This document shows positions 119 through 33,811 of a stretch of 33,811 nucleotides of DNA, one piece after another (positions within the stretch are counted from its first letter, which is position 1; the number at the start of each line of letters is the position of its first letter). Under the pieces are notes generated by a model, which did not search any database, had not been told where the DNA came from, and saw nothing but the letters and a program-made list of their open reading frames with translations. A program made the translations under genes and the position numbers. The stretch lies in contig JAJRWU010000183.1 in assembly GCA_024276655.1 (NCBI GenBank), forward strand, positions 1-33,811, written 5' to 3'. The DNA is from Planctomycetota bacterium (GTDB taxonomy: Bacteria; Planctomycetota; Planctomycetia; Pirellulales; Pirellulaceae).

Positions 119-770
119 GTGAAAGCGGCGCCACCTCAGGCTGTCATTGACCGTATCAAGGAACTTGGGCAGGTACTCGAAGATCGAGAACGAATTGTTC
201 ACGAGGCCATCGCTCACCTGGAAGGTGAATCCGAGCGACTTCAAGATGGGGAACAACTGATTCGCAAGCGGCTTGGGACCAACAAAGCTGAAATCGGTCG
301 ATTGATCGAAGTGCTAAAATCGATGGGTGCCAAGGGACTGGTCAGCGTCCAAGACGAACTGGAGCGATTGGAAAGCGAAGCAAAGGAACTCAAGCAACAA
401 TTGAAGGACTTGTCGCAGCAACAGGCTCCGGTTGAGCGAATCACTGACCAAGCACGGAAATTCGTCGAGACTTGGGAAGACATCGGCGAGCTGATTGACG
501 AAGCCACAGCGGAGGAGTGCAAGGAATTGCTCCAGCACTATATCGAGGTGATCGAGTTGCACTCGACGGACCCCAAAGGCCGAACCGGCACCTACGCCTT
601 GCGGCTCTTTCCTGAAGTTCGGCCTGACAGAGATTTCACCTGGAATCAAGCCGATCCGAGCGAATTTCTCCCAAAGCCTACTCTGTCAACGAAAAACGGC
701 GATGATGCCCCGCAGGACGCCATCGCCGTGTTAACCTCTGACGACGTTCTGTTCGAACGATCGTCCGGAA

Positions 771-794
771 AGCTCCCCCGGCAAGACTCGAACT
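771..794 (+). repeat. Left attachment core (24-bp copy of the tRNA-Asn 3' end)
   Basis: These 24 bases are identical to 7762-7785, while the flanking bases differ (a770 versus t7761, a795 versus t7786). The core lies inside two reading frames: that of the serine recombinase (KLPRQDSN) and that of the integrase (APPARLEL). Confidence 0.92.
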
Positions 795-795
795 A

Positions 796-984
796 CACCA
801 AGAAACACCGGGAAAAACGACGTTTTCAGAATCGCGCGGCACAGAATCCGGCACAGTTGGCGCCGATTTGGTCTTGCAGGACGAAAGATTGCGGTTGGTT
901 ATCGGCGCATGGGAGGGTCTGCCGGAGGCCGCGAAGGAAGATATCGTGGCGCTGGTTCGGACGGCAAAGGGGAACCGAAAATGA
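796..984 (+). other. Detached C-terminal tail of the element's tyrosine integrase
   Basis: In the frame that matches the integrase across the attachment core, this stretch has 62 sense codons and then TGA at 982-984. It begins HQETPGKTTFSESRG and ends with LRLVIGAWEGLPEAAKEDIV followed by ALVRTAKGNRK, the kind of helical tail I associate with planctomycete tyrosine recombinases. It has no start codon of its own. Joining integrase codon 425 (Leu, 7784-7786) to codon 796 across the 24-bp core is in frame and would give a 487-aa integrase in the excised circle, against 437 aa in the integrated form. The frame match and the stop are read directly; the biological role is inferred. Confidence 0.8.
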
Positions 985-1036
985 TCACACCAAAATAGCG
1001 GGCATTCTTGGCGGCCTACGCCGCTTGATGGTTGAA

Positions 1037-1164
1037 GCAAACGTCAAGCAAACGTCAAGCAAACGTCAAGCAAACCTACCGGAAGCCTTTCGGAAGCCTT
1101 TCGGAAGCCTTTCGGAAGCCTTTCGGAAGCCTTTCGGAAGCCTTTCGGAAGCCTTTCGGAAGCC
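1037..1164 (+). repeat. Two adjacent arrays of 11-bp direct repeats (iteron-like)
   Basis: GCAAACGTCAA is repeated three times plus a partial copy (1037-1080). It is followed without a gap by GGAAGCCTTTC repeated seven times plus a partial copy (1081-1164). Both arrays have the same 11-bp period, one helical turn, as in Rep-binding iterons. They lie at the end of the element opposite the integrase, upstream of the replication genes, and an AT-rich stretch (1176-1187) follows. An origin function is inferred. Confidence 0.75.
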
Positions 1165-1188
1165 CCCTGGGAGAATCTAATATATCGA

Positions 1189-1260
1189 GAAAACCGCTGG
1201 AAAACCGGGCTGTTAGGAAGACGTGGGTGCGTCTGGCGTGCGTTCGGCGAGCGTTCGGCG
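1189..1260 (+). repeat. Further 11-bp repeats, two more unit types
   Basis: GAAAACCGCTG/GAAAACCGGGC occupy 1189-1210. A degenerate triplet of 11-mers (GTGCGTCTGGC, GTGCGTTCGGC, GAGCGTTCGGC) occupies 1228-1260. The period is the same as in the arrays just upstream although the unit sequences differ, which supports a selected helical spacing. Confidence 0.6.
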
Positions 1261-1946
1261 GCGATTTGTAGCAGATTGCCGACGATTTACGCTGGGGGCT
1301 GGCCAGCCAGTTGGCTGATCTACTTGGCGACGAACGAGCCGCCTGGGAAGCTTGAGGGGTTGCGGGCAGAGTGCGAGAAGGATTGCACGCTGGGCGGCCT
1401 CTGAGCATGCCTTGCGGGCGTCCGAGCGATCTGATTGAGTTGGGCGTGGCAAAATGCCCGCCGCCTCTCTGGGGGCGATTCTCAGGGCTTCCAAAAGGGG
1501 GAAGGGGTGCCGGGGAACCCATTCGCGCCCCCAAGGGTTTGTACCTACATGCCGTAGGTTTTTTTTGATTTGGGACGGTTCATTCTAGGGGGAACGGCAT
1601 TGCGCATTAAGCGCAACGGGTTTTCTTGGGGTTCTTCGAACCGACTTGGGGAGGTTGTTCCGCCCTTGGAGCTTTAGTTTCTGATGGGTTCGAGGGTAGT
1701 TTGCTTTCCGGTTGAAGCGGAGAAACAAGAGTGTTTTGTTGGCTAAGATTGACAATGTATTCATTTGGTAAGGGGGAAGGGAGTGTAGATGGTTGGCGGG
1801 AGTCTCGGGGGGAGTGTGTTTCAAGCGTGAGATTTGATGTAGGATTTTCATCGCTGGGAGTTGCTACCCGGCTTTTCTCCCGTTCGCCGCGTTGGATTAG
1901 TGTCTTTCTCCTGCGCGGCGGCGGGACTTTTGAAGGACACTTTCTT
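1261..1946. other. Non-coding stretch between the repeat arrays and the first element gene
   Basis: I see no credible protein here on either strand. It holds the terminator at 1543-1566, a short hairpin TTGCGC/GCGCAA (1600-1616) and a small dyad GGTTC-TTC-GAACC (1630-1642) that could be an operator. The open frame from 1731 into the next gene has a composition unlike protein before 1947. This is probably the control region of the element. Confidence 0.45.
1543..1566 (+). terminator. Rho-independent terminator
   Basis: The stem ACCTAC/GTAGGT (1543-1548 and 1554-1559) has a 5-nt loop and ends in a run of eight T (1559-1566). No convincing protein gene lies just upstream, so it may end a non-coding transcript or one that crosses the repeat arrays. 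Confidence 0.6.
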
Positions 1947-2642
1947 ATGGCAGATTATCGCCCTGTTCACGACAAGTTTCCTCTCATTGTGGAGCTTCGG
2001 TCTGACCTGCCGGGTATTATGCCGGAGGAGCGGCCGGATTGGCTTCCAAGCGATTGGCGTGGGTTTTTCTGCCCAGTGAGCTTGGAACCTGCGGCCGTTC
2101 GGCAATGGCTCGACTGGACGATTATACTTTTGGAGAATTTGGGAGTGCTGCTCGATGATCGAGACGGCCGACAAATGGAGCCGTGGTCTGGTGATGATGA
2201 TTACCACGACGCCTTCGTTCTGGTGAGGTTGCTGCGTCGAAAGGGAGCGACGAATCTTCCCTCACGTAAGGAGGAAAATTTCAGCGTTCCTCAGGCCATT
2301 AAGGAGTTACTGGCGCTTCGCGATCTGATTTGTGCGGATGAAGTAGGTGGCGGCGGCGTCGACACAGCGCATTCGCCCGACTTTCGATCATTGCGATGGT
2401 TTGGAGAAGTTTACAGTTTTACGGCGAATCAAGCCCCGGTCGTGAAATGCCTTTATGAGAATTGGGAGAACGGAACGCCCGACGTTGGCGATGAAACGCT
2501 GTTATCGGCAGTCGATCATGACGCCCCGCCGGCCCGGTTGTCGGTATTGTTCCGCAAACATCCGGCATGGAACACGCTGATTGTTTTGGGCGAAACCAAG
2601 GGGACAAAGCGATTAGCGGAAGAAAACACCAAAGGCGCATGA
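1947..2642 (+). CDS. Conserved protein of planctomycete mobile elements, function unknown
   Basis: The product is a 231-aa soluble acidic protein. I chose ATG 1947 because AAGGAC lies upstream and because the codons before it do not look like protein, although the frame opens at 1731. The last ~75 residues (SFTANQAPVVKCLYENWENG onward, then SVLFRKHPAWNTLIV and LGETKGTKRLA) resemble a C-terminal module that I recall from hypothetical proteins encoded near integrases and primases in planctomycetes. Its helical pattern could be a winged helix, but I see no diagnostic motif. It is the first gene of the element's replication block, 103 bp before the HTH operon, so a role in replication initiation or regulation is possible but unproven. 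Confidence 0.7.
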   Translation: MADYRPVHDKFPLIVELRSDLPGIMPEERPDWLPSDWRGFFCPVSLEPAAVRQWLDWTIILLENLGVLLDDRDGRQMEPWSGDDDYHDAFVLVRLLRRKGATNLPSRKEENFSVPQAIKELLALRDLICADEVGGGGVDTAHSPDFRSLRWFGEVYSFTANQAPVVKCLYENWENGTPDVGDETLLSAVDHDAPPARLSVLFRKHPAWNTLIVLGETKGTKRLAEENTKGA

Positions 2643-2745
2643 AACTCATCAGGTAGCGCGCGTCTAGCGCACAACTGATTTTCTATGATTCATCGCAGCG
2701 CCGACCGATGGTGGCCGGCAATTCTTCTCTTCAGAGGAAAATGTG

Positions 2746-2937
2746 ATGAGTCTACTTTCTTTAGCGCGCATGGCGCGGCGGCTGGGAGTCACCCAAAATT
2801 GGCTTCGCACCCAGGCCGACGCCGGCGAAGTCCCCTGTTTGAAAGCTGGCCGGCGCCATCTCTTCAATCCGTCGGCGGTTGAGGAAGTGCTGGCCTCTGA
2901 GGCTGCAAATACGCGGCAAGGGGGCGACGATGCATAA
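2746..2937 (+). CDS. Small helix-turn-helix protein, excisionase/MerR-like (first of pair)
   Basis: The 63-aa product is nearly all one HTH_17-type winged helix: LARMARRLGVTQNWLRTQAD, then GEVPCLKAGRRHLFNPSAVE. This pattern (helix, turn, helix, then G-x-hydrophobic-P and GRR wing residues) is shared by excisionases and small regulators. ATG 2746 is preferred over GTG 2743 because AGAGG at 2733-2737 is then 8 nt away. The stop overlaps the start of the next gene by 8 nt, so the two are probably translationally coupled. It likely binds element DNA as a directionality factor for the integrase or as a regulator of the operon; the sequence does not say which. Confidence 0.8.
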   Translation: MSLLSLARMARRLGVTQNWLRTQADAGEVPCLKAGRRHLFNPSAVEEVLASEAANTRQGGDDA

Positions 2938-3133
2938 TAGCACCCCCGCCAAGCCGGCCTTGCTTCTGACGCCGGCCGACGCCGCCCAGGCCTTGGCCAT
3001 TAGCCCCCGCAAACTTTGGTCGATGCCCCATGCCGGCGAGATTCCGCATATCAAAATGGGGCGATCTGTGCGGTATCCTCTGACCAAACTGCAAGCCTGG
3101 ATTGCGGCGGAAGCGAAAGGGGGCGCAGTATGA
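2930..3133 (+). CDS. Small helix-turn-helix protein, excisionase-like (second of pair)
   Basis: This 67-aa protein has one winged-helix module of the HTH_17 type: LTPADAAQALAISPRKLWSM, then AGEIPHIKMGRSVRYPLTKL. It is parallel to the preceding gene but clearly divergent from it, so the pair may have arisen by an old duplication. ATG 2930 overlaps the upstream stop, and the gene's own TGA overlaps the ATG of the nuclease gene (ATGA at 3130-3133), a sign of a coupled operon. A probable division of labour is one excisionase and one repressor or activator, which is inference. Confidence 0.8.
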   Translation: MHNSTPAKPALLLTPADAAQALAISPRKLWSMPHAGEIPHIKMGRSVRYPLTKLQAWIAAEAKGGAV

Positions 3134-3672
3134 GCACTCCCAAAGAGCCGCCACAAGCGGAAAAAAGGGGCACGCTTCGGCGACAGATGCCGGCGGAGTT
3201 GAAGCCCGATCAGGTCTGGGCGGTGGTCGATTCGCGGGAGCAAACGCCGCTCGATTTGGCGCCGTTGCAGACGACCACGGCGGGGTTGACCACTGGCGAT
3301 TATTCGGTGGTTGGGCTCGAACACATCGTGGCGGTCGAACGAAAAAGTTTGCCCGATCTGATTGGCTGCGTCGGTCGTGAACGGGAGCGATTCGACCGCG
3401 AAGTTGCCCGCTTGCTTGCGTTCCCGAGTCGCCTGTTGATTGTCGAGGCGACCTACCGCCAGCTTGAAGAGGGCGAATGGCGAGGGAAGATCACGCCGCG
3501 AATGGTGTTGGGTTCGCTCGCCGGTTGGGAGGCGTTGGGCTTGCCGGTCGCCCTGGTGGGAGATCATCGCCGGGCGGGTGAATATACCAGTAGATTCCTC
3601 TTTCTTGTGGCTCGCCGACGATGGCGGGAAAATCGGGCATTGGCAACCTCCGTGATGGAGGGCGCCCAATGA
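3130..3672 (+). CDS. ERCC4-domain (XPF/MUS81-fold) nuclease
   Basis: The product is 180 aa. It carries the core of the ERCC4 nuclease fold: VVDSREQTPL with the metal-binding Asp at about residue 34, TTGDYSV at 55-60, and VERKSLPDL with the catalytic ERK at 70-72. A helical part with RERERFDREV follows. Proteins of this family cut branched or flapped DNA; stand-alone short versions occur in phages and integrative elements. The family's usual C-terminal HhH domain is absent. Start and stop both overlap their neighbours through ATGA, so the protein is made together with the primase-helicase and probably acts in replication or in processing recombination intermediates of the element. Confidence 0.85.
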   Translation: MSTPKEPPQAEKRGTLRRQMPAELKPDQVWAVVDSREQTPLDLAPLQTTTAGLTTGDYSVVGLEHIVAVERKSLPDLIGCVGRERERFDREVARLLAFPSRLLIVEATYRQLEEGEWRGKITPRMVLGSLAGWEALGLPVALVGDHRRAGEYTSRFLFLVARRRWRENRALATSVMEGAQ

Positions 3673-6005
3673 TCCAAAAAAGCCACGAAGCCGCCGACGT
3701 GAAACATGCGGCAGCCGGGCGATGGGTTGAAATACTTTGCCACCTTGGCGGTGTCGATGAATCATCGCTCGATGGTCGGCATCACCCATGCCCAAAGTGC
3801 GGTGGCACTGACCGTTTCCGCATGATCGATGCCGACGCGGGCGCCTGCTTCTGCAACAAGTGTTTCAACCAGGAAAATGGTGACGGGTTCGCCGCGTTGC
3901 AATGGCTAAACGGCTGGAGCTTCCCCGAGGCGATCAGTGCGGTAGCTGAGCATCTTGGCACGGCCGCGCCAGCCAACGGAAAGCCTGCGGCGGTCGACTT
4001 GATAGACCAAGTTTGCCGATCCAAACGCATGCCGCGCGACGCGTTCGAGAAGTTTGGTGTGAAGGTGGTCGACGGTCGATTTGGCAAAGTTGTTCGCGTC
4101 GATGTTTATAACGAAAAAGGTGTCGTGCATGCTCACTTTGATTTGACCCCCAAAGACAAGGGTTTCTTCAAAGCGGGCAAAGGTTCGGCGGGGTTGTTCC
4201 TTCCGGCGCGGGCGCCGAAGCCCGACGAAACGTGGTGCTTGGTCGAAGGCTGCAAAGACTCCGCTGCGTTGGTCGGTGTCGGTTTCAACGCCTGCGGTCT
4301 GCCAACGTCAAGGCTCGCCAAGAAGTTTCAACCGCTCTTCCGCGATGTTCACGTCGTGATTGTTCCCGACCGCGATAAAGCAGGTGAAGACGGCGCCAAC
4401 ATGACGGCGGCATTGCTTCACGGCATGGCGGCAACGGTGAAAATTGCGACGTTGCCGACTGGGTATCGCGAATCGAAAGGCGACGACGTTCGCGACGTGC
4501 TCGCCAGCCAAGGCGAAGAGGTTGTGCGACGAATTATCGAAGAGGCGCCGGAGTGGAAACCGCCGCAAAGCAATGAATCAGCAAGCGGAAGCCGAATATC
4601 TAACATGAAGGAGGTTGTAAACGAGGAAGATGAAACCGTTTCCGTCCCCGCGCACATAAACGAAATCCTGGACGCCACCGCAAACGCAACCGGCAATTGG
4701 CCGCGCCGCATGAACGATGCGCTGTTTGTCGACGACGAGCATGGCGTCAATTTCCTTACAAAATGTGAAGCGCTGTTCGGATACTTCCAGCGTCAAAAGG
4801 GCGGCGTCGATTGGCGGAATGGCGCCACGGCCGTGGGCAAAGCCGAGCTATTTCATGAACTTCGCCGAACAGCGACACAATACAAAGCCGTCGAAAATCT
4901 GCCGCATTTCCCGCCGATGGCTGGGCACTATTACTCATGCAAAACGGTTCAACCGGGCGACGGAAAAATGCTCGATGCGTTGGTCGACCGTTTCAACCCG
5001 ACAACCGACATCGACCGCGATTTGATATTGGCGATGTTCGTAACGCCATTTCTTGGGACGGCTGGCGGAACACGCCCAGCATGGGTAATCACGTCCGACG
5101 ATGGCCGGGGCAGCGGCAAGACCAAGTTGGCGGAAATGGTTTCCTTGGTGGCTGGCGGAGCGTTGCAGGTTTCGCATGGGGAAGATATCACCAAGCTGAA
5201 GGAGCGGTTGCTGACGCCTTCCAGTCTCACGAAGCGCGTGGTTGTTCTCGACAACATCAAAAGCCTGAAATTTTCGTGGGATGATCTGGAGGGACTGATA
5301 ACGGCGCCGATCATCAGCGGACGGCAACTTTACCATGGCGACTTTGAACGTCCCAACATGCTTGTGTGGTTGCTCACGCTGAACGGCGCGTCTCTTTCGA
5401 CCGACATGGCGCAGCGCGTCATTACCGTTCAAATATCGCGACCTACACGGTCCGGCGACTGGGAAGAGAAAACGCGGGCGTTCATCGCCGACAATCACGC
5501 CGCGATCCTGGCGGACATCGCCGCATTCTTTCAGCGAGAGCGTTTCCCGCTGGCGAAATTCACCCGCTGGGCGACGTGGGAGCGTGAGGTTATCGAACGT
5601 CTGCCGGAGCCCGGAGACGCCCAGGCGGCGTACATGGAGCGGCAGGCGGCGGCAGACGTGGAGGAAGAAGAGTCTGCCATCATCGCCGACTACTTCCGTG
5701 AGCGGCTGGAAGATCTTGGATACGACGCCGACACCGATCGAATTCACATTCCGACCACCATAGCTACGGATTGGTTCCGCACCGCGACCGGTGACAGATC
5801 GAAGACAACCACGGCGGTCAGCCGCACGCTCAACCAAATGCAAAAAGAGGGACGACTGACAAAAATCATGGCGAACCCGTCCCGCCACCTTAGTCGCGGT
5901 TTCCTCTGGATTGGCGACGAATCGGGTGATTCTGATTGCCTATCTGACCTAGATACCCGAATTCAATACGGATGCGGGACGCGCGGGACGCTTGGGACGC
6001 TTTGA
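3669..6005 (+). CDS. Primase-helicase: zinc ribbon, Toprim-like region and P-loop NTPase
   Basis: This 778-aa replication protein has several parts. An N-terminal zinc ribbon (C41-x2-C44 and C62-x2-C65, in CPKCGGTDRF and CNKC) is typical of P4/gp4-type primases. A Toprim-like stretch follows (VEGCKDSAAL near 192-201; VPDRDKAG near 232-239, with acidic DRD). The P-loop ATPase has DDGRGSGKTK with Lys484 and Thr485, and a hydrophobic strand ending VVVLDN (Asp528) as Walker B. The C-terminal ~120 residues look like a winged helix. It probably primes and unwinds the element's own DNA after excision. It starts in an ATGA overlap with the nuclease gene. Its last codons (RGTLGTL) lie inside a 31-bp inverted-repeat arm. 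Confidence 0.87.
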   Translation: MIQKSHEAADVKHAAAGRWVEILCHLGGVDESSLDGRHHPCPKCGGTDRFRMIDADAGACFCNKCFNQENGDGFAALQWLNGWSFPEAISAVAEHLGTAAPANGKPAAVDLIDQVCRSKRMPRDAFEKFGVKVVDGRFGKVVRVDVYNEKGVVHAHFDLTPKDKGFFKAGKGSAGLFLPARAPKPDETWCLVEGCKDSAALVGVGFNACGLPTSRLAKKFQPLFRDVHVVIVPDRDKAGEDGANMTAALLHGMAATVKIATLPTGYRESKGDDVRDVLASQGEEVVRRIIEEAPEWKPPQSNESASGSRISNMKEVVNEEDETVSVPAHINEILDATANATGNWPRRMNDALFVDDEHGVNFLTKCEALFGYFQRQKGGVDWRNGATAVGKAELFHELRRTATQYKAVENLPHFPPMAGHYYSCKTVQPGDGKMLDALVDRFNPTTDIDRDLILAMFVTPFLGTAGGTRPAWVITSDDGRGSGKTKLAEMVSLVAGGALQVSHGEDITKLKERLLTPSSLTKRVVVLDNIKSLKFSWDDLEGLITAPIISGRQLYHGDFERPNMLVWLLTLNGASLSTDMAQRVITVQISRPTRSGDWEEKTRAFIADNHAAILADIAAFFQRERFPLAKFTRWATWEREVIERLPEPGDAQAAYMERQAAADVEEEESAIIADYFRERLEDLGYDADTDRIHIPTTIATDWFRTATGDRSKTTTAVSRTLNQMQKEGRLTKIMANPSRHLSRGFLWIGDESGDSDCLSDLDTRIQYGCGTRGTLGTL

Positions 6006-6114
6006 GCCCATTGTAACCCTTTCAGGCGAAAATCTTAAAAGCGCTCCCCATGTGTGAAGCAAACACAATGGAAACAAAGCGTCCCAAGCGTCCCGCGCGT
6101 CCCGCGCGTCCCGA
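5974..6114. repeat. 31-bp perfect inverted repeat built of 9-bp units, 70-bp spacer
   Basis: The arms 5974-6004 and 6075-6105 are perfect reverse complements. The right arm is an array of 9-mers, GCGTCCCAA, GCGTCCCGC twice and GCGTCCCGA (6079-6114). The left arm has three copies on the other strand (5976-6002) and includes the last codons and stop of the primase gene. It could fold as a hairpin, act as a pair of protein-binding arrays, or provide integrase arm-type sites. The arrangement is seen directly; the function is unknown. Confidence 0.85.
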
Positions 6115-6143
6115 CTCAAATTTCGTGCTACGGAGGCCCGAAG

Positions 6144-6365
6144 ATGTTGATGACCCCAACCGAGGCCCCGACGGTCGACCAAGACGAAACTATTGAGGCC
6201 CTGGAACTTGGCCCCGACGGCTGGCCATTGGATTGCGTCGACCCCGACGAACTGACGCCCTGCCCGAAATGCGGAACGCTCGAACTGCGGCAATCCATAG
6301 CGGGCAACTGGCGATGCCAACGATGCGACCCACCCAAAAGCACCCGGCAAACCCGCCGGTGGTGA
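6144..6365 (+). CDS. Small zinc-ribbon protein, function unknown
   Basis: The 73-aa product has an acidic N-terminal half and a four-cysteine zinc ribbon (C40-x2-C43 in CPKCG, C58-x2-C61 in WRCQRC), followed by a short basic tail. ATG 6144 is chosen because GGAG at 6132-6135 is well spaced. The upstream in-frame ATG at 6054 would translate the 9-bp repeats as a proline/arginine/valine-rich leader (VPSVPRVPRVP), which looks unlikely. Short proteins of this type often sit just before the integrase in planctomycete elements, as I recall them. It could bind DNA or RNA. Confidence 0.6.
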   Translation: MLMTPTEAPTVDQDETIEALELGPDGWPLDCVDPDELTPCPKCGTLELRQSIAGNWRCQRCDPPKSTRQTRRW

Positions 6366-6511
6366 AAAACAACGCCCCAGGTTTGCCTTGAGTGAGCCGA
6401 CGAACTGAGTAATGATTGAAACTACCTTGCGGCGACTCGATGCGTTATACGTCCGATAAGACACTCCATCGCACCAAGCCGCAACCATTGAACGAAAGCA
6501 GGTAAAGCAAA

Positions 6512-7825
6512 ATGGCATCGATCGGCAAAGATCCCGGCGGGCGAAAGCGGATTCTGTTTGTGGCCCCCGATGGAAGACGCAAAACGATCAGACTCGGCAA
6601 GCTATCCATTCGTGCGGCCGAGGGCGTGAAGTATCGAGTGGAACATTTGCTGTCTTCAAAGATTGCAGGCCATGCCGTGGAGGCTGATACGGCCCAGTGG
6701 GTGGCAAGTCTTGAACCAACACTGGCCGAGAAACTGGCGGCGGCGGGGCTGATTCCAAGGCCGGAAATAGCGACGTTGGGCGAGTTCATCAATTCGTATA
6801 TCAACGGTCGAAACGACGCGAAGTCGGGAACCATCGACCACCTTCGACGTGTGAGAACCGACCTTGTAAACTTCTTCGGCGCCGATAAGCCGATGGGCGA
6901 AGTTACCGTAGGCGACGCGGACAACTTTCGCCGTGATTTAATTGGTCGCGGGCTTGCCAGCAACACCGTGCGACGTCGATGCGGCAGGGCGAAACAGTTT
7001 TGGAATGTGGCGATAGACCACGAACTGATAACACGAAACCCGTTCGTCAAACAGAAAGTGACCGTCGGCGCTAATCGAGAACGCGATTATTTCCTCAGCC
7101 GGGAAGACTCCCAGAAAATTCTCGAAGCCTGCCCAGACGGGCAATGGCGATTGATTTTCGCTCTTTCCCGGTTTGGCGGCTTGCGTTGCCCCTCAGAACA
7201 TCTTGCGTTGACGTGGGAGGACGTTGATTGGTCGCGGCAACGATTGCTTGTCACTTCCCCCAAAACGGCACACCACGAAGGCAAGGGTGAGCGGTGGATT
7301 CCCATATTCCCGGAATTGAAGCCACATCTTGAGGCTGCGTTTGAGCAAGCGGAAGAAGGCGAGAGCCGAATCATCACCCGGTACACAAACGCCAAGCAGA
7401 ACTTACGAACACAGTTCGAGCGAATCATCAAGCGGGCTGGCCTGATTCCGTGGGAGAAGCTGTTTCAAAACCTGCGACTCAGCCGGGCAACCGAACTGGC
7501 GAACGAATTCCCGGCACATGTCGCGGCGGAGTGGCTTGGTCATTCTGCCATGGTCGCGGTGAAACATTATTGGCGAACCACCGATGACGACTACGAGAAG
7601 GCGACCCTTGAAAAGCCACCTGCTGGGTGCGCGGCACAGAAAGCGGCACAGCAAGCGCACGTAAAGGGTCGCAACGGCTCGCAAGAGGAAATACCCGAAA
7701 GCGGGAAACCCCTTGTTTTGCAGGGTATTGCGACTCCGTGCGATACTATACAAGTGTACATAGCTCCCCCGGCAAGACTCGAACTTGCGACAAGGCGGTT
7801 AACAGCCGCCTGCTCTACCAACTGA
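6512..7825 (+). CDS. Tyrosine-type site-specific integrase (reads into tRNA-Asn)
   Basis: The protein is 437 aa in the integrated state. The N-terminal ~90 residues are basic (arm-binding); a SAM-like core-binding domain spans about 95-185 (LGEFINSYINGR onward); the catalytic domain follows. Candidate active-site residues are R225 (GGLRCPSE), K251 (TSPKT), R322 (QNLRLSRATEL), H344 (WLGHS) and Y353 (VKHYWRTTDDD). The usual HxxR histidine is replaced by Gln (QNLR). The gene runs through the right attachment core; its last 12 codons (ATRRLTAACSTN) are tRNA sequence read backwards, and excision would replace them with the tail at 796-984. The start is ATG 6512, with a weak upstream AGCAGGT. It catalyses integration at, and with a directionality factor excision from, the tRNA-Asn site. 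Confidence 0.92.
   Translation: MASIGKDPGGRKRILFVAPDGRRKTIRLGKLSIRAAEGVKYRVEHLLSSKIAGHAVEADTAQWVASLEPTLAEKLAAAGLIPRPEIATLGEFINSYINGRNDAKSGTIDHLRRVRTDLVNFFGADKPMGEVTVGDADNFRRDLIGRGLASNTVRRRCGRAKQFWNVAIDHELITRNPFVKQKVTVGANRERDYFLSREDSQKILEACPDGQWRLIFALSRFGGLRCPSEHLALTWEDVDWSRQRLLVTSPKTAHHEGKGERWIPIFPELKPHLEAAFEQAEEGESRIITRYTNAKQNLRTQFERIIKRAGLIPWEKLFQNLRLSRATELANEFPAHVAAEWLGHSAMVAVKHYWRTTDDDYEKATLEKPPAGCAAQKAAQQAHVKGRNGSQEEIPESGKPLVLQGIATPCDTIQVYIAPPARLELATRRLTAACSTN
7762..7785 (+). repeat. Right attachment core (24 bp, 3' end of tRNA-Asn)
   Basis: Identical to 771-794. It covers the discriminator base, the 3' acceptor strand and much of the T arm of the tRNA gene, so integration leaves the tRNA intact. 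It is also read in frame by the integrase gene. Confidence 0.92.
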
Positions 7826-7836
7826 GCTACAGGGGA
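7764..7836 (-). tRNA. tRNA-Asn (GTT)
   Basis: Read on the minus strand, the 73 nt form a full cloverleaf. The acceptor is TCCCCTG/CGGGGGA (one G-T wobble). The D arm contains TAGCTCAGTTGGTAGAGC. The anticodon loop CTGTTAA has anticodon GTT (7803-7801). The T arm is GCAAG-TTCGAGT-CTTGC and the discriminator is G. CCA is not encoded. Its 3' end is the integration target of the element on its left. Confidence 0.95.
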
Positions 7837-31214: not shown

Positions 31215-31235
31215 GGGGTCCGTCCGTGGACATTG

Positions 31236-31370
31236 TCTCGAAATAGTGCGTCTCGAAATAGTGCGTCTCGAAATAGTGCGTCTCGAAATAGTGCGTCTCG
31301 AAATAGTGCGTCTCGAAATAGTGCGTCTCGAAATAGTGCGTCTCGAAATAGTGCGTCTCGAAATAGTGCA
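31236..31370 (+). repeat. Nine perfect 15-bp tandem repeats upstream of the DUF6268-like gene
   Basis: The unit TCTCGAAATAGTGCG is repeated nine times without change except the last base. The array occupies the region 22-156 bp upstream of the start codon on the minus strand, where a promoter or leader would be. A related TCTCGAAATA occurs at about 33160. Confidence 0.93.
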
Positions 31371-33555: not shown

Positions 33556-33811
33556 ATGATGACGACGTATCACGGTTCGGCCGGAATTTTTCGAGGCGCG
33601 CGGCGTTTGGCCATTGGCTTCACTCTGCTGCTGCTTGCGGCGTGGATTGCTTCCGCCATCGGGCGACAGGCGGTTGGTCGGGAAACGCCAGCCGACGCCA
33701 GTCAAACACCAGCCGACGCCAGTCAAACACCAGCCGACGCCAGTCAAACACCAGCCGACGCCAGTCAAACACCAGCCGACGCCAGTCAAACACCAGCCGA
33801 CGCCAGTCAAA
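33556..33811 (+). CDS. Secreted protein with heptapeptide repeats, N-terminal part (runs off the window)
   Basis: The open frame of 85 codons continues past the window. A short basic N-terminus (MMTTYHGSAGIFRGARR) is followed by a hydrophobic segment (LAIGFTLLLLAAWIASAIG), a signal peptide or anchor. Then the heptapeptide TPADASQ is repeated six times by a 21-bp DNA repeat, the first copy directly after RQAVGRE. Start 33556 is chosen with GAGAG upstream; ATG 33544 in the same frame is an alternative. The repeat probably forms a flexible linker before a folded domain outside the window. The opposite-strand open frame here is only a reading of the repeat. Confidence 0.65.
   Translation, partial: MMTTYHGSAGIFRGARRLAIGFTLLLLAAWIASAIGRQAVGRETPADASQTPADASQTPADASQTPADASQTPADASQTPADASQ
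33685..33811 (+). repeat. 21-bp tandem repeat (six copies) inside the secreted protein gene
   Basis: The unit ACACCAGCCGACGCCAGTCA plus A is repeated from 33685 to the window end; only the first copy differs (ACGCC). Its length is a multiple of three, so copy number can vary without breaking the frame. Confidence 0.92.

Follow-up and report, generated by a model that had tools for sequence, protein, structure and literature searches.

The window, i.e., the complete stretch of 33,811 nucleotides analysed here (contig JAJRWU010000183.1 of assembly GCA_024276655.1, a Planctomycetota bacterium of the Pirellulaceae), was inspected for the organization of a tyrosine integrase gene ending within a tRNA gene. 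Positions 771–7785 are interpreted as a 7-kb integrative element that carries, within the 3' portion of the gene for its integrase, the attachment site of the circular state (attP), an explanation that, taken as a whole, is considered probable. The element is bordered by an exact core of 24 base pairs (bp), AGCTCCCCCGGCAAGACTCGAACT, present at 771–794 and 7762–7785; these are the only two copies in the window, and identity stops at both borders. The right copy represents the 3' end of tRNA-Asn(gtt). The features underlying this interpretation are as follows:

771–794, forward strand: left attachment (attL) core, exact 24-bp repeat, a displaced copy of the tRNA-Asn 3' end from T-loop to discriminator
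795–981, forward strand: detached 3' part of the integrase gene, its frame continuous with the integrase across the core, matched by tails of relatives and closed by a TGA at 982–984
834–863, forward strand: tail-side arm repeat (GCGCGGCACAGAATCCGGCACAGTTGGCGC), proposed P' arm-type integrase sites, an ungapped match to 7629–7658 that is translated in another frame
877–966, forward strand: C-terminal hairpin mini-domain (QDERLRLVIGAWEGLPEAAKEDIVALVRTA), with a profile match at 877–966, protein-type selection in relatives and a pair of helices modelled for the relative L118
6512–7825, forward strand: tyrosine integrase, integrated form, 437 amino acids
7629–7658, forward strand: pre-core arm repeat (GCGCGGCACAGAAAGCGGCACAGCAAGCGC), proposed P arm-type sites
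7762–7785, forward strand: right attachment (attR) core, within both tRNA-Asn and the integrase frame
7763–7836, reverse strand: tRNA-Asn(gtt), the target gene, intact (ARAGORN)

The core is translated as APPARLEL in the integrase frame, which ends within the tRNA gene after 12 further codons. At the left end of the element, the same frame read from position 772 yields APPARLELHQETPG...WEGLPEAAKEDIVALVRTAKGNRK and continues for 62 codons past the core, referred to as the tail in the following; the product joined from both parts would comprise 487 amino acids. The initial annotation had deduced from the position of the core within the integrase frame both the two protein lengths and the 62-codon tail, and the exact core repeat and the reading of the frames bore this out. 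Pfam assigned SAM-like and catalytic domains to the integrase, the Phage_integrase match covering residues 195–357, and the core starts only at residue 418. All positions found invariant in the integrase alignment (A2), namely R225, K251, R322/R325 and H352-Y353, which we take to be the catalytic residues, are located before residue 418, so that the proposed retention of the catalytic residues on the 437-amino-acid part held. Integration seems to take away a selected mini-domain, the hairpin, yet no conserved catalytic residue. The tail frame is open from position 742, and by eye there is no ATG, GTG or TTG ahead of the core; the tail in the window thus looks like an orphan, in-frame TTG codons within it being possible starts.

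In order to evaluate how widespread this arrangement is, related genomes were searched with the joined 487-amino-acid protein, resulting in integrase matches in 49 of 60 genomes, several of them featuring the tail alone or an integrase–tail join. At an expectation value (E) of at most 1e-3, a profile of the tail matched 136 of the 246 genomes sampled from the order, and a second tail profile matched 54 of 294 genomes of the phylum at 1e-5. Homologues carrying a similar tail in a conserved frame, as had been expected, were thus recovered, and the last 27 residues of these tails change in the manner of a protein. The integrase frame was open into an opposite-strand tRNA gene in 36 of 67 distinct integrase loci, which represent ten tRNA types (Val, Glu, Asn, Lys, Met, Arg, Ile, Leu, Ser and SeC); 26 of these loci use the frame reading mostly GLEP over the T-loop, eight the frame reading RT and two the third frame. 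Tail and integrase were in the same phase in all ten tail/tRNA pairs with a core of at least 11 bp, including the window and the partial integrase L094 (15-bp core), two of the 12 rows (L082 and L101) having been excluded because of matches of just 6 and 8 bp. Exact cores of 20–24 bp reaching the T-loop TCGAA were present in seven of the ten pairs. The possibility that the tail is a chance open frame was rejected based on the profile matches across relatives and the conserved frame. Plasmid and phage collections provided just distant integrase matches, eight records each and all below 60% identity, and no description of planctomycete integrases of such build was found in the literature as far as this was accessible, which included few subscription papers. 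Within the window's own genome, further integrase pieces of the family are located on contigs C66 (L043), C302, C94 and C306 (L042), one of them at a tRNA-Lys gene, and a second detached tail is present on C306.

Among the alternatives, the one that survives best takes the swap of the gene end for a by-product of keeping attP near the integrase gene; both protein forms would then work alike and the hairpin would serve a role other than switching, e.g., stability in the circular state. The retention of the conserved catalytic positions on the 437-amino-acid part fits such an explanation, as do the 36 loci with a frame open up to the tRNA gene and relatives that do without the tail (L030, L122). 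On the other hand, protein-type selection acts on the hairpin even though only circular or tandem states can join it to the integrase, and reviews on phage Mx8, considered below, report altered activity or specificity of a swapped integrase. This alternative is considered clearly less probable than the explanation given at the outset.

The tail itself proved to be composed of three layers, as deduced from a codon alignment of 44 of 48 distinct tails (E at most 1e-10). The linker featured a ratio of nonsynonymous to synonymous differences (pN/pS) of 0.93, i.e., no protein-type constraint. In the middle segment, few changes were observed at any codon position (0.29, 0.25 and 0.34 for the first, second and third position; pN/pS 0.84). 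The last 27 residues showed a coding-type pattern (0.43, 0.30 and 0.57; pN/pS 0.57), with pN below pS in 931 of 946 pairs, which are not independent of each other. The proposal of a genuine recombinase tail was hence upheld for the C-terminal end, which is conserved as protein, and had to be given up for the part conserved as DNA in the form of arm-type repeats. No family for the tail alone was found in NCBIfam at E of at most 1, and the function suggested for it here derives from sequence. An ssrA-like degradation tag was rejected as well, since the tail in the window ends in GNRK and the endings of relatives vary.

A similar hairpin (E 2.7e-13) was observed at the end of an uninterrupted Ser/Thr kinase-like gene (kinase by eye) in the window's genome (G000:C274:23336-23425; L152, L176) and also in G001:C30 (L201). 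The occurrence of the hairpin in both the kinase and the integrases suggests a shared partner, as judged from sequence and short of proof. Furthermore, hairpin-only matches across the phylum (L153–L170, e.g., L153, L154 and L168) often follow antisense-tRNA-like peptides in other frames (GGSSPSSAT, AGSIPAAST and GGNRTRKP; by eye), and other integrase families may accordingly use the same trick.

DNA of the middle tail segment resembles GCGGYGCAGAATSCGGYGCAG, and a copy of this motif ahead of the core was detected in 47 of 67 integrase loci with scores above 30 shuffles of each locus by two-base blocks (46 of 66 informative loci when L105, whose best match is a neighbouring tail, is set aside). 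In all 47 loci the motif was found on the same strand, occurring in two reading frames. Both sides of the core matched above 100 shuffles, as direct repeats, in 12 of 15 elements, a set that excludes L094. The own-side arm score averaged 19.7 vs. 13.3 with the tails of other elements, a difference reached in none of 20000 permutations, in which relatedness was not modelled. Such element-specific versions on both sides are as expected of co-evolving arm-type sites to which the integrase would bind.

For the tail-bearing relative L118, an AlphaFold2 model was obtained that comprises arm-binding, core-binding and catalytic regions, a stretch at residues 389–461 with values below 50 in the predicted local distance difference test (pLDDT) and C-terminal helices at 463–474 and 477–489. 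The nearest solved structures are lambda integrase (best match in the PDB; full-length 1z1b/1z1g) and Tn1549 integrase. As the stretch modelled as disordered coincides approximately with the place where attP DNA is read, one sequence could serve as both attachment site and linker. An attP with both arms seems to be placed in a disordered integrase linker.

Based on these data, a tail conserved as DNA only, representing the P' arm of attP with an incidental frame and idle extra residues, is considered improbable. The slow change of the arm segment at all three codon positions, the use of one arm motif in frames that differ between both sides of the core and the linker's pN/pS value speak for it, and it was kept for the arm segment. 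For the hairpin it was already disfavoured and is rejected on the split in selection seen in the codon alignment: the last 27 residues are coding-like with changes concentrated at third positions, the hairpin is predicted as two helices, and an unrelated kinase terminates in a comparable stretch.

Viral contigs were scanned with the integrase alignment, and 20 loci were obtained. Six distinct viral integrases (L113, L115, L116, L118, L125 and L128) run into a tail recognized by the longer profile, a tRNA being predicted there in none of them; L112 and L117 overlap a tRNA gene and have no tail at that place. Direct end overlaps were tested in 16 records, corresponding to 16 of the 20 loci (all except L123, L127, L130 and L131), and five records were found to be closed (G270, G271, G280, G281 and G284). 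In four of these, integrase and tail form one frame, with end overlaps of 119 bp (G270), 80 bp (G271), 44 bp (G280) and 69 bp (G281), and G279, a contig of a different dataset, corresponds to G280 in permuted and shorter form and spans the ends of the latter. Moreover, L117 (at tRNA-Ser) and L118 (no tRNA) share 82% identical DNA over approximately 1300 bp and diverge at the core, and would represent a natural before-and-after pair. The closed record G281 (L148) is, at 7355 bp, about the size of the element in the window and, besides integrase and tail, appears to encode prohead-protease-like, HNH and small-terminase-like proteins (names by eye), resembling a satellite-like circle.

A tandem arrangement was observed on G044:C21, where the same 21-bp core is present at the tail and at tRNA-Glu, and the upstream integrase frame, with 482 open codons, continues into the tail of the downstream element; insertion of another element at this site can thus restore a complete tailed integrase. 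Further in-frame integrase–tail joins on genome contigs were recognized by eye (L051, L056, L081, L093 as the weakest, L099, L203, L205 and L206), L205 and L206 looking like other integrase families. That contiguous integrase–tail genes originate mainly from tandem arrays of integrated elements and not from free circles, as this array and these joins might imply, is the least probable of the alternatives, given that integrase and tail also occur together in closed records, recognized by their end overlaps, in which no tRNA is predicted where the two meet; one of these records is backed by the circularly permuted contig of another dataset.

Several results weigh against an attP-bearing integrase gene completed in the circle. 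The 487-amino-acid form is predicted for the element in the window, closed records originating from relatives only, and an end overlap fits a circle but can also reflect linear phage DNA with redundant termini. In closed record G284 (L129), the frame continues beyond the core into a different sequence, with no match to a tail profile. The first tail profile found the tail in just two of eight viral records searched; L125 and L128 match the longer profile (8.6e-5 and 4.8e-6) and fail with the hairpin-only profile (0.1 and 0.14). Among the 67 integrase loci, 31 do not run into a predicted tRNA; ten of these, judged from how they end, run into a tail, and the others include contig ends and unexplained endings. 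The integrase of L030 stops ahead of tRNA-Leu and that of L122 within a tRNA-Lys-like fragment. Arm repeats failed in three of the 15 elements (L098, L106 and L107), an element's own tail ranked first in just eight of the 15, and the permutation and pair counts ignore relatedness. The L118 model is of modest quality (mean pLDDT 73.9; predicted template modelling score 0.48; hairpin pLDDT about 66–86). In summary, the observation is confirmed and its structural interpretation supported; the functional consequence of losing the tail would follow by analogy with Mx8.

Based on genome interpretation, the following course of events is proposed. In the circle, 7785 would be joined to 795, reading ...IAPPARLELHQETPG..., and the gene would encode 487 amino acids composed of a lambda-type integrase, a disordered linker of approximately 70 residues and the C-terminal helical hairpin. 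The DNA encoding the linker would at the same time constitute attP, with P-arm repeats, the tRNA-derived core and P'-arm repeats, the repeats presumably being bound by the integrase's arm-binding domain. Recombination with the 3' end of tRNA-Asn would restore the tRNA and split the integrase gene: the catalytic part would stay beside the tRNA and gain a short tRNA-encoded ending (437 amino acids), and the hairpin would be stranded at the other end. The hairpin-bearing enzyme of the circle may be the form selected for integration. Loss of the hairpin may lower or redirect the activity of the enzyme once integrated, steadying the integrated state; this would hold as long as neither a directionality factor (possibly one of the HTH_17 proteins) nor full-length integrase supplied by a second or tandem element comes into play. 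A more far-reaching, tentative idea, to which less than even probability is given, is that a planctomycete partner docks onto the hairpin, a portable mini-domain that several integrase families would share with a host Ser/Thr kinase. In this case, integration would act as a covalent state sensor, just circular or tandem copies recruiting the partner; a tandem neighbour would return the tail, so that superinfection re-arms the resident integrase, and a single stretch of DNA would combine the roles of attP arm sites, disordered linker and reading frame.

Further features of the element and of its left flank are listed below:

119–793, forward strand: C-terminal recombinase remnant of a neighbouring element at the same tRNA (phrog_95 'integrase', E 2.7e-8; no Pfam match)
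2743–3133, forward strand: two short HTH_17 proteins (2743–2937 and 2879–3133; Pfam PF12728)
3016–3672, forward strand: ERCC4-type nuclease frame of the element (Pfam PF02732; phrog_3490)
3621–6005, forward strand: primase/helicase-like replication protein of the element (Pfam PF08273; phrog primases)

The HTH_17 proteins are candidate regulators or a candidate excisionase. The left flank (1–793) represents the recombinase remnant and not plain chromosome. In the genome G001 of the same genus, the same tRNA-Asn is 95.7% identical over 1517 bp and carries no tyrosine element at that place. A C-terminal recombinase remnant is located at this tRNA-Asn as well (G001:C3, L151), its frame reading ...KAPPARLELATRRLTAACSTN through the tRNA; the remnant in the window is 42% identical to it and in another phase at the core. 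Both remnants are probably of the large serine type (phrog_95 'integrase'; type by eye). With the G001 remnant also continuing through this tRNA-Asn core, both the site and the read-through seem to be used by a second class of recombinase as well. Repeats were also noted in the window: two adjoining 11-bp tandem arrays (units AAGCAAACGTC and AAGCCTTTCGG) at 1035–1170, behind the tail and just within the element; a GGGACGC-rich 41-bp inverted repeat at 5974–6105 at the end of the primase gene, with arms that are 93% complementary and 50 bp apart; and, outside the element, 15-bp (GTCTCGAAATAGTGC) and 21-bp tandem repeats at 31235–31369 and 33683–33808.

These findings describe a bacterial integrase family, frequent within a single order and recognizable in a portion of the phylum, that rewrites the end of its own gene upon integration at many tRNA genes. 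The paired circular, integrated and tandem forms provide material to study how a tyrosine integrase knows direction. Integrases taken from integrated planctomycete elements of this kind end in antisense tRNA and lack their true C-terminus; tools derived from them would consequently use the wrong protein form.

Regarding known systems, the lambda-type integrases share the N-terminal arm-binding, core-binding and catalytic domains; Pfam marked SAM-like and catalytic domains in the integrase of the window, and the L118 model matches full-length lambda integrase. In archaeal SSV-type suicidal integrases, the attachment site lies inside the integrase gene, a tRNA gene is the target and the gene is divided on integration (PMC8371274). 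The initial annotation had drawn this parallel, and the planctomycete element indeed shares the attachment site in the integrase gene, the tRNA target and the gene split. In contrast to the SSV type, just the C-terminal tail is exchanged here and the catalytic part stays whole; a parting of the catalytic domain from the N-terminal part was rejected, as Phage_integrase (195–357) and Y353 stay on the 437-amino-acid product. In the integration-dependent immunity of mycobacteriophages, attP lies in the repressor gene and integration removes a C-terminal ssrA-like degradation tag and alters how the protein behaves, tandem prophages also being described (PMC9934374). An attP inside a coding gene and the removal of a C-terminal segment are common to both; unlike there, the gene is the integrase itself and the tails have no common ssrA-like ending. 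For streptococcal integrative and conjugative elements in rumA, PMC4701971 describes an attachment site inside the integrase gene and an excised form with a different C-terminus, but these elements use serine recombinases and their target is not a tRNA gene.

The nearest precedent is phage Mx8, and not the archaeal SSV type. According to two reviews, the coding sequence of the Mx8 integrase contains attP, and on integration the gene acquires another 3' end (PMC6070905), 112 residues being replaced by 13 (PMC4701971), with altered activity or specificity of the swapped form (PMC6070905, PMC4701971). In the Mx8 record AF396866, a T-arm-like sequence (by eye) is translated as STGLEPV in the integrase frame, with exactly 112 residues behind it; switch point and frame are thus of the same kind as in planctomycete integrases with in-frame GLEP. 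Both systems place the attachment core inside the integrase frame, in the window as in its relatives, and in both the C-terminus would be exchanged and the catalytic part kept, as read from the ends of the element in the window, the L117/L118 pair and the closed records. The integrases are only distantly related, with an hhalign probability of 25% over profile columns 90–278. Homology with the Mx8 tail was not found, the Mx8 protein matching neither the planctomycete tail nor the hairpin profile, and repeats flanking the Mx8 core did not exceed shuffles (10 vs. 13). Whereas Mx8 is one phage, the planctomycete integrases constitute a broad family that targets tRNA genes of at least ten types. 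What is new beside the Mx8-type plan is the embedding of arm-like repeats, the selection on the hairpin, the multitude of tRNA targets and the restoration in tandem.

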